From contig CALXQH010000005.1 of assembly GCA_944390525.1 (NCBI GenBank), forward strand, positions 1 to 42,210: a DNA stretch of 42,210 nucleotides, written 5' to 3'. Source of the stretch: an uncultured Clostridia bacterium. GTDB taxonomy: Bacteria > Bacillota > Clostridia > TANB77 > CAG-508. The position numbers and the translations under genes are program-made. Shown piece after piece: positions 2,754-4,906 of this stretch; position 1 is the stretch's first letter, and each line of letters opens with the position of its first letter. The notes beneath the pieces are model-generated. The model did not search any database, was not told where the DNA came from, and saw only the letters and a list, made by a program, of their open reading frames with translations.

Positions 2754-3458
2754 TTAATTACTAATAGTTTTAAATTTTTTTAGTCTAACATTATATGCTT
2801 CTAAAACAGCATGTTCAAATGCAAGTTTTGGTTCTTTTATTCCCATAACTTTTAATAACTTTAAAGTAAAATATGGATTTAAAATTAAAAATGGACCTAT
2901 TAAATATGTTGCAAAGAAATTGTTTTGGTGAATTCCTTCTAAAGTTGAATTTTCATTAATTCCTATTCCCATATTTACTTTAAATAAATAATTTTGTTCA
3001 TTGTTTCCATATAACATAGTAAATTGGCTTTTAAAACCAAGTATTTCTATATCTTCATATTCTCCTAAATAGAAACTATTGTGTCTATGTAACATATCTC
3101 TTTTTGCATATATGTCAAAAATATTAAGACCTTCTATTTTACTCTTATCTTCATTTTCAATATATTTGCCCAATACTTCCACACTATTTCCTGTAAATAA
3201 ACACACTTGTCCATGTTCTATTTTTTGCTTAATATTTTCTGTATAAGGTTTTAATTGTTTAATTACTATTTCTTGCGATCTTTCTGATAGTGTTCCCATA
3301 TATACAAGAGCAATATCTTCTTCATTTATAAATTTAGGTTGTTCATTTATTGATGTTTCTATAATTTGCGAATCTGGTAAACATTTTTGTAAATACTTTA
3401 TATTTCCAATATCTCCATTTAAATTACAAAGTTCTGGATATAAAACTTCTATTTTCAT
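2754..3458 (-). CDS. gatD: GatD-like class I glutamine amidotransferase subunit, catalytic residues replaced
   Basis: GatD normally releases ammonia from glutamine and passes it to MurT, which amidates the D-Glu of lipid II. This 234-residue protein follows the GatD fold: NLNGDIGN near residue 12 matches the family's NLYSDIGN, and the C-terminal TYLIGP (184-189) followed by NP matches TYLHGP. The catalytic machinery is missing. The family nucleophile elbow xCGGYQxLG reads FTGNSVEVLG here (88-97), with Gly or Thr in the Cys position; the His of TYLHGP is Ile187; and the GFENHGG loop reads GFKSQF (141-146). The nearest Cys (C86) is four residues too early. The start overlaps the murT stop as ATGA, so the two are translationally coupled. 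A glutaminase-dead scaffold or altered amidotransferase is inferred. Confidence 0.8.
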   Translation of the reverse strand: MKIEVLYPELCNLNGDIGNIKYLQKCLPDSQIIETSINEQPKFINEEDIALVYMGTLSERSQEIVIKQLKPYTENIKQKIEHGQVCLFTGNSVEVLGKYIENEDKSKIEGLNIFDIYAKRDMLHRHNSFYLGEYEDIEILGFKSQFTMLYGNNEQNYLFKVNMGIGINENSTLEGIHQNNFFATYLIGPFLILNPYFTLKLLKVMGIKEPKLAFEHAVLEAYNVRLKKFKTISN

Positions 3459-4849
3459 ATTTTCCTCATTTCTTCTTTATTATTAATTAATTCTTTAACT
3501 TTAAGTTTTATTTGTTTTGTTTCTTCTATTGAATATAAATCATGTAAAATAAATATTTTTTCTATATCTTCTAATTTTAATTGGCTTGTTGCCTCAATTA
3601 TATCTTTTTTATATACTATTTTTTCAGGGCTAATATTTGCCATTAACAAACGTATATAGGAGTCTAAATAACGTGGTCCTGCAACAATAATTTGTTTTAT
3701 GCTTTCATTATTTAAAAATTCATAATCTGCATCATACTGCCAGGCTGTATCCTCAGACCCTTTAGCTTCTTCATGTAAATCATCTAAAATAAGAATTACA
3801 GCTTTCTTTCCTGTTTGTGTTCTTATATAATCAAATGCTCTTGAGCAAGCTATTGGATTCATTCCTTTTGCTAAATGGGTTATTATTTCATATTCATTAT
3901 ATTTTTCCTGACTAAATCTTGTTTCTACAATTTTTAAGCCTTTAAATGAATCATTTATTTTTTCTTGTGAGAATCCTAATTTCTTTAATACAATAATTAC
4001 AGCTAACATATTGTATATATTTATAATACTGTCATTTATTAAATCATATTCTTCTTCTGCATTTTTTGTTTTTATAGTCATTTTTTTATTTTTTATATCT
4101 AATTTTGTTACTATATAATCTGCTTTTGGTGTTTTAAATCCACATTTTGGACAATATGCTTTTCCAATATGATGATATCTTACATATTCATATTCTAACT
4201 TGGTATAGCACTTAGGACATATTCTTATATCTCTTGTAATATTTTCACATTTTTCTAAATCTGTTGGTAATCTATCTATGCTAAAATATATTTTTGAATT
4301 GTCATTTGCAATATTACTGCAAATAATATCATCTGCATTTTCTATCATTATGGTTTCTTTTGGTATATATTTATTTAATATATCTGCCATAAATTCAGTA
4401 TGTGCATTTCTCATTAAAGAATCTCTAAATAAATTTGTACAAACTAAATATGTTGGTGTAATATAAGGATATATTTTATTTGCACTTCTTTCATCTATTT
4501 CTAAAACCGCTAACTGTTTTTTGGCTTTTCCCGTAAAAGTTGAACCCTGAATAAGCGTAGTGGCTATTCCACCATCTATATTTGACCCATATTTATTATT
4601 TATAAAATCAAATTTATTTTTACTTAATATATCATTTATCATATTACATACTGTAGTTTTTCCATTTGTTCCTGTTACACCAATGATAGTTTTGGGTTTT
4701 TCTAACATTCCTAAAAAATTTGGACATAATTGTAAAGCTATTTTCCCAGGAAAATATGTTGCATTTCTTCTTAATATTTTTAATGCAAAAGATGAAACCT
4801 TTGCTATCCAAAGTGTTATATAAAATTTAAATGTTTTTTTATTGCTCAT
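3455..4849 (-). CDS. murT: MurT-like Mur ligase: lipid II D-Glu amidotransferase ATPase subunit
   Basis: MurT is the Mur-ligase-like ATPase that activates the D-Glu carboxylate of lipid II for amidation. The 464-residue product has the Walker A GVTGTNGKTT (57-66), a four-Cys zinc ribbon inserted in the ligase core (C211, C214, C233, C236) that is typical of MurT, and a C-terminal DUF1727-like domain with DTAWQYDADYE (367-377), equivalent to the family's DxSWIWDxDFE. The usual KNPAG motif is altered to AKGMNPIA. The longest open frame starts 57 bases earlier at 4906, but that point lies inside the -35 box. ATG at 4849 has GGAGAGG five bases upstream and the family N-terminus, so it is preferred. 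It is coupled to gatD by a 4-base overlap. Confidence 0.9.
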   Translation of the reverse strand: MSNKKTFKFYITLWIAKVSSFALKILRRNATYFPGKIALQLCPNFLGMLEKPKTIIGVTGTNGKTTVCNMINDILSKNKFDFINNKYGSNIDGGIATTLIQGSTFTGKAKKQLAVLEIDERSANKIYPYITPTYLVCTNLFRDSLMRNAHTEFMADILNKYIPKETIMIENADDIICSNIANDNSKIYFSIDRLPTDLEKCENITRDIRICPKCYTKLEYEYVRYHHIGKAYCPKCGFKTPKADYIVTKLDIKNKKMTIKTKNAEEEYDLINDSIINIYNMLAVIIVLKKLGFSQEKINDSFKGLKIVETRFSQEKYNEYEIITHLAKGMNPIACSRAFDYIRTQTGKKAVILILDDLHEEAKGSEDTAWQYDADYEFLNNESIKQIIVAGPRYLDSYIRLLMANISPEKIVYKKDIIEATSQLKLEDIEKIFILHDLYSIEETKQIKLKVKELINNKEEMRKI

Positions 4850-4877: not shown

Positions 4878-4906
4878 ATTGTATATGTATTTTTTTTATT
4901 TATCAA
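4878..4906 (-). promoter_or_regulatory. Sigma-A promoter of murT-gatD
   Basis: Read leftward, TTGATA (4906-4901) and TACAAT (4883-4878) are separated by 17 bases. The -10 lies about 29 bases before the ATG at 4849. This placement supports the shorter murT start, because the longer frame would begin upstream of the transcription start. Confidence 0.65.

Follow-up and report, generated by a model that had tools for sequence, protein, structure and literature searches.

What does a MurT–GatD pair do once its GatD has lost the residues that make it a glutaminase? The question is raised by two adjoining genes in the window (the whole stretch of 42,210 nucleotides, from an uncultured Clostridia bacterium, that was analysed here). 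The original prediction, made from the letters alone, was that the gatD product keeps the landmarks of its fold but has all three signature sites of the glutaminase changed, that the pair is maintained, and that its chemistry differs from that of the known enzyme. Features of both genes are collected in Table 1.

Table 1. Features of the murT-like and gatD-like genes; positions are those of the window
Feature	Position	Strand	Source
murT-like gene, 464 aa, Mur ligase middle domain and MurT_C	3455..4849	(-)	
murT P-loop GTNGKTT	4652..4672	(-)	
murT NNKYGSN with the acceptor-carboxylate Asn (S. aureus N85)	4580..4600	(-)	Role of Asn: PMC6085368
murT FRDSLMRNAHT, GatD-facing loop; D137 and E141 of intact pairs replaced	4397..4429	(-)	
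murT Cys4 zinc ribbon (CPKC ... CPKC), conserved	4133..4219	(-)	
murT LAKGMNPIA, KNPAG loop with the lineage-marking 2-residue insertion	3848..3874	(-)	
murT DDLHEEAKGSEDTAW, counterpart of the DNAADGRDTSW loop, 3 residues longer	3740..3784	(-)	
gatD-like gene, 234 aa, GATase_3 fold, without catalytic Cys or His	2754..3458	(-)	
gatD FTGNSVEVLG (residues 88-97), replacing the Cys94 nucleophile elbow ICGGYQFLG	3168..3197	(-)	Alignment
gatD RDMLHRHN (residues 120-127), motif typical of the type A subgroup	3078..3101	(-)	
gatD GFKSQF (residues 141-146), replacing GFENHGG	3021..3038	(-)	Alignment
gatD TYLIGP (I187), replacing TYLHGP (His189)	2892..2909	(-)	Alignment

Alignment to the GatD proteins of S. 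aureus and S. pneumoniae confirmed the three changes: Gly stands at the position of Cys94, Ile187 at that of His189 and KSQF at that of ENHGG. Cys94 and His189 are catalytic in S. aureus / S. pneumoniae, the third residue being MurT D349 or GatD D19 (PMC6113224, PMC6085368). A counterpart of Arg128, the Arg that captures glutamine, is present within the RDMLHRHN motif. A Cys located four residues before the nucleophile position (VCLFTGN) was considered as a substitute nucleophile and rejected, since it is not conserved among relatives. A sequencing error or an odd genetic code was rejected as well: the loss is common to several genera, and the CTP synthase of the same genome has an intact glutaminase site (GICLGMQ, FHPEF); the loss therefore concerns GatD specifically. 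All five other genomes of the window's genus with a pair aligned in the family scan share the loss.

The fold of GatD is kept, as predicted. The structural model (pLDDT 97, pTM 0.93) matches S. aureus GatD (6h5e_A) with a Z score of 27.5 and an rmsd of 2.4 over 228 aligned residues, and the closest solved structures to the pair are the S. aureus and streptococcal MurT–GatD. Carbamoyl-phosphate synthetase I (CPS1) is also among the fold matches; the human enzyme has a naturally dead glutaminase domain and uses free ammonia. Pfam assigns GATase_3 to the window's GatD (34 bits) and Mur_ligase_M and MurT_C to its MurT. Neither protein reaches the cut-off of its NCBIfam equivalog model (69.5 bits versus 400 for GatD and 195.4 versus 800 for MurT).

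The murT gene starts with ATG at 4849, with GGAGAGG upstream (a longer ORF begins with TTG at 4906), and is coupled to gatD by an ATGA overlap, in agreement with the original prediction. Its product retains GTNGKT, the acceptor Asn, E108 and the four zinc-ribbon cysteines. The unusual KGMNPIA in place of KNPAG, which had been noticed along with the intact Walker A motif and Cys4 zinc ribbon, turned out to be an insertion of two residues. A second intact murT–gatD pair elsewhere in the genome would have spoken against the predicted change of chemistry; no second MurT, and thus no second intact pair, was found in this 81.6%-complete genome, and relatives of the same genus that have MurT (93-98% complete) likewise have one only. 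The neighbours of the pair in the window are housekeeping genes: aspS, mnmA, rlmN and a PP2C gene. Genes for a Ser/Thr protein kinase and the PP2C phosphatase lie at 3-1633 of the window (-), just downstream of gatD and rlmN; rlmN and PP2C have the same placement in relatives of the window genome.

To place the pair among its relatives, we scanned the window's family, then the order, class and phylum, and added fetched regions. MurT is present in 67 of the 145 genomes of the family, with gatD adjoining it in nearly all. Three kinds of pairs occur in this family: type A, to which the window's pair belongs; intact pairs, in which both Cys and His are present; and type C, a further kind that lacks the two residues. 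The wider scans and fetched regions added type D. In a sample of 168 aligned pairs (167 sampled murT–gatD pairs and that of S. aureus), the state of GatD goes together with that of MurT: the 62 pairs with Cys and His never have the insertion in the KNPAG loop of MurT, the 97 pairs with neither residue always have it (KxxN), and the remaining nine are scattered Cys losses without the insertion. The nucleophile position in the 106 GatD proteins lacking Cys is occupied by Gly, Asn, Ser or Ala.

A single branch sets the 97 pairs apart in the trees of both MurT (SH-aLRT 95) and GatD (SH-aLRT 93), built with the trait columns excluded. The Cys is present in CobB and CobQ, which are homologous GATase_3 enzymes; therefore, the Cys-less state of the lineage is a loss, and an old one. 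The loss seen in the window is thus shared far beyond its genus: pairs without Cys and His are one old, widespread MurT–GatD lineage in Clostridia and no isolated decay.

The distribution of types among close relatives is uneven. A genome coded to the window's genus (G243) has an intact-type pair (L087), and two genomes (G236 and G242) have a type A pair inside an otherwise intact-type genus. Different pair types (intact, A or C) among close relatives were observed at L087 of G243, at L118 and L119 and at L048 of G106; genomes with a differing type nearly always hold one pair only, as if one pair had replaced another. Two genomes of the window's genus (G028 and G095, 97-98% complete) have no MurT, and the pair is dispensable within this genus. 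At four loci (L035, L036, L037 and L038, in genomes G035, G142, G100 and G082) gatD is split in two overlapping ORFs, which may be split genes, frameshifts or signs of decay. An ATP-grasp gene associated with sugar transfer (PF14397), possibly encoding a second amino-acid ligase, adjoins murT–gatD at eight loci of types A and D (L028, L029, L030, L129, L131, L037, L038 and L114).

Within the intact-type clade, the nucleophile Cys was lost in at least six further, scattered cases (L046, L153, L154/L155, L162, L166-L168 and L171). Most of these pairs retain the His and MurT D349, and the genome of L162 (G303) also has an intact pair (L185). It is possible that such losses are ammonia-using stages.

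Genes of the lineage remain under selection. Values of dN/dS for Cys-less gatD genes (0.05-0.23) are close to those of intact gatD and indicate purifying selection, and the order murT then gatD is kept in all 97 pairs. Among MurT positions that do not vary in intact pairs, 25 persist across the lineage, including the P-loop, the acceptor Asn85, E108, Y266, N267, R298, K315 and the zinc-binding Cys residues, and nine are lost: D137, E141, G297, G319, N341, D342, D346, G347 and D349 (residue roles are from PMC6085368 and PMC6113224). Most of the lost positions fall in three loops: the one facing GatD, the KNPAG loop and that from DNAAD to D349. This pattern indicates that the lineage has retained the ligase and lost its coupling to a glutaminase. 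At the last of these positions the window's MurT still has the Asp349 equivalent (SEDTAW), and 65 of the 106 Cys-less pairs have Asn. The new loop motifs differ among types A, C and D. Three observations support the predicted maintenance of the pair with a different chemistry: its conservation across 97 pairs, the purifying selection on gatD and the concerted changes in MurT.

Genes located next to gatD suggest what this chemistry may be. Ornithine racemase directly follows gatD, on the same strand, at 11 of the 26 type C loci, and arginase lies beside the racemase in five type C loci. At five of the 46 type A loci the gene directly after gatD, again on the same strand, encodes the diaminobutyrate transaminase EctB, and at one more (L008) it encodes arginase. 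None of these three genes directly follows gatD in 61 intact pairs; most type A loci and all type D loci have no diamino-acid gene next to gatD. Matches to the EctB model TIGR02407 are above its cut-off; the three racemases checked against model NF040742 scored 318-457 bits, under the cut-off of 480. These counts make no correction for kinship; linkage of diamino-acid genes with the pair appears to have arisen in about four separate events.

The racemase is also associated with type C at the level of whole genomes, being present in 19 of 26 type C genomes, in none of 36 with intact-type MurT and in none of 78 without MurT. Inside the window's family it was found in 10 of 17 type C genomes, leaving seven without it, versus 0 of 128 others (Fisher p ~2e-11, kinship ignored); outside this family it was found in 9 of 9 type C versus 0 of 23 intact-type genomes (Fisher p ~4e-8, kinship ignored). 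The racemase of family f6 was rejected as support: it is catabolic and adjoins OraE/OraS, so racemase presence alone proves little. Ornithine fermentation operons of this family (Orr, OraS, OraE and further genes) were seen at L277, L278 and L279, and their Orr differs from the racemase adjoining type C gatD.

A type A genome (G003) has ectB inside its dcw cluster, in the order rsmH, a short ORF, pyrB, pyrI, ectB, a spoVD-like PBP gene, murE, mraY and ftsW. The MurE of this genome has the DNPR motif of meso-DAP enzymes; hence diaminobutyrate is probably part of the wall, but not as stem residue 3. In some genomes, diamino acids could go to stem position 3 instead. The window genome has arginase on another contig (G000:C11), away from the pair, and the two genomes of its genus without MurT have arginase too. 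Across the lineage, the neighbour evidence suggests that a whole diamino acid is attached to a wall precursor.

Known since the 1970s, group B peptidoglycan has its bridge amino acid on the D-Glu alpha-carboxyl, and so MurT cannot simply amidate this carboxyl there. We are aware of no enzyme to which the attachment of the bridge residue to D-Glu has been ascribed. A genome that is probably that of Acetobacterium woodii (G370) has a type C pair as its only MurT–GatD pair, and the Orr (ornithine racemase) gene is present. The murein of A. woodii was reportedly described as group B by Kandler and Schoberth in 1979; our literature search found no paper on Acetobacterium murein. Eubacterium is listed with peptidoglycan type B2alpha, and in some relatives of type C hosts the D-Glu alpha-carboxyl is known to bear an amino acid (review, PMC11382707). 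Walls of E. limosum contain ornithine, lysine and serine (PMC4791908).

On balance, we think it somewhat more likely than not that MurT of this lineage joins a diamino acid to the alpha-carboxyl of D-Glu, the bridge step of group B, with GatD in a non-catalytic role. MurT and ATP would form an acyl phosphate on the D-Glu alpha-carboxyl of the lipid-linked wall precursor, as before, with D-Glu retained as the acceptor; the acyl phosphate would then be attacked by the amine of a diamino acid rather than by ammonia from GatD. The likely amine would be D-ornithine in type C and ornithine or diaminobutyrate in type A. For the window's genus, ornithine is a guess made from the arginase in the genome, and we hold the diamino-acid reading with less confidence for type A of this genus than for type C.

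In the proposed mechanism, the amino acid would be held by the remodelled KNPAG and DNAAD loops, in the C-terminal domain of MurT, at the place where MurE holds its own; the DNAAD loop was compared with the MurE amino-acid site by the authors of the S. aureus structure (PMC6113224). GatD would complete the active enzyme as a structural subunit, a role made probable by S. aureus MurT, which alone was inactive even with ammonia, GatD-C94G being sufficient (PMC3266927). The GatD pocket was set aside as the site of reaction with the diamino acid, since 20-40 A separate Cys94 from the ATP phosphate in the S. aureus structure (PMC6113224). The resulting diamino-acid branch on D-Glu would serve in the 2-to-4 cross-linking of group B peptidoglycan. 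The broader proposal, that the lineage is the missing group B bridge ligase, derived from an amidotransferase by silencing of its glutaminase and rebuilding of the MurT acceptor loops, is one that we advance more tentatively, with slightly less than even confidence.

Several options for the altered chemistry had been offered at the outset: free ammonia, another source of ammonia, a purely structural GatD or a different substrate. The gene neighbours point to a different amine substrate combined with a non-catalytic GatD; free ammonia is a live rival, though we judge it the less likely explanation. D-isoglutamine would then still be made, from free NH3, with GatD only completing the complex in a CPS1-like manner. 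This agrees with the retained MurT core of the lineage, with CPS1 as a fold match and with S. aureus, where MurT needs GatD and GatD-C94G lost the use of glutamine and kept NH3-dependent amidation of lipid II in vitro at pH 8.5 (PMC3266927). Scattered Cys losses beside an otherwise normal MurT (L046, L153, L162 and L171) also fit an ammonia-using stage. However, S. aureus MurT–GatD did not use NH3 at pH 7.5 (PMC3266927), the diamino-acid genes after gatD are left unexplained, and ammonia requires no new loops, yet the MurT loops have conserved insertions and replacements.

Joining of some other amine (glycine, serine, putrescine or cadaverine) to D-Glu, the diamino-acid genes being marks of some subgroups only, appears improbable to us. 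Differences in the new loop motifs of types A, C and D would be expected if substrates differ, type D lacks a diamino-acid neighbour and sometimes has the ATP-grasp gene, and attachment of glycine or D-serine to the D-Glu alpha-carboxyl has precedent (PMC11555704); still, no gene for glycine, serine, putrescine or cadaverine was found in linkage with the pair. We regard as very improbable a supply of ammonia to MurT in trans by another glutaminase: an intact glutaminase domain does exist in the genome's CTP synthase, but this is the sole PF00117 match in the 81.6%-complete genome, and MurT has lost the residues that contact the GatD active site and gate the passage of ammonia. Least credible is a decaying, non-functional pair, which would suit the absence of MurT from G028 and G095 and the split gatD of G035, G142, G082 and G100 but disagrees with the low dN/dS of gatD, the conservation of new motifs across many families and the operon order kept in every pair of the lineage.

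The link between the group B bridge step and a MurT–GatD-like pair is new here. It provides a concrete two-gene candidate for this step, partly in a culturable organism (probably A. woodii). Judging by their sequences, many genes likely annotated as glutamine-hydrolysing lipid II amidotransferases would be unable to hydrolyse glutamine, and such misannotation affects the predicted wall structure and wall fragments of gut bacteria.

Compared with the MurT–GatD lipid II isoglutaminyl synthase of S. aureus and S. pneumoniae, the lineage has the same folds, operon and gene order, Mur ligase core, zinc ribbon and acceptor Asn, but it lacks Cys94, His189 and ENHGG, its MurT has longer KNPAG and DNAAD loops, and D137, E141, D346 and G347 are replaced. 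The combination of MurT with a glutaminase-dead GatD resembles the laboratory mutant GatD-C94G; that mutant was shown to be active only with NH3 at pH 8.5 (PMC3266927), whereas the lineage is natural, old and has coordinated changes in MurT. Like human CPS1, it keeps a class I GATase fold without the nucleophile Cys; unlike CPS1, which uses free ammonia, it has gene neighbours that suggest an amino acid. As an ATP-dependent Mur ligase that adds an amino acid, the proposed enzyme would resemble MurE and MurF, from which it would differ in its target, the D-Glu alpha-carboxyl, and in having a GatD-like subunit. Its proposed product would match group B peptidoglycan such as the B2alpha type of Eubacterium (PMC11382707), in which the D-Glu alpha-carboxyl bears an amino acid and the bridge contains Orn or Dab.
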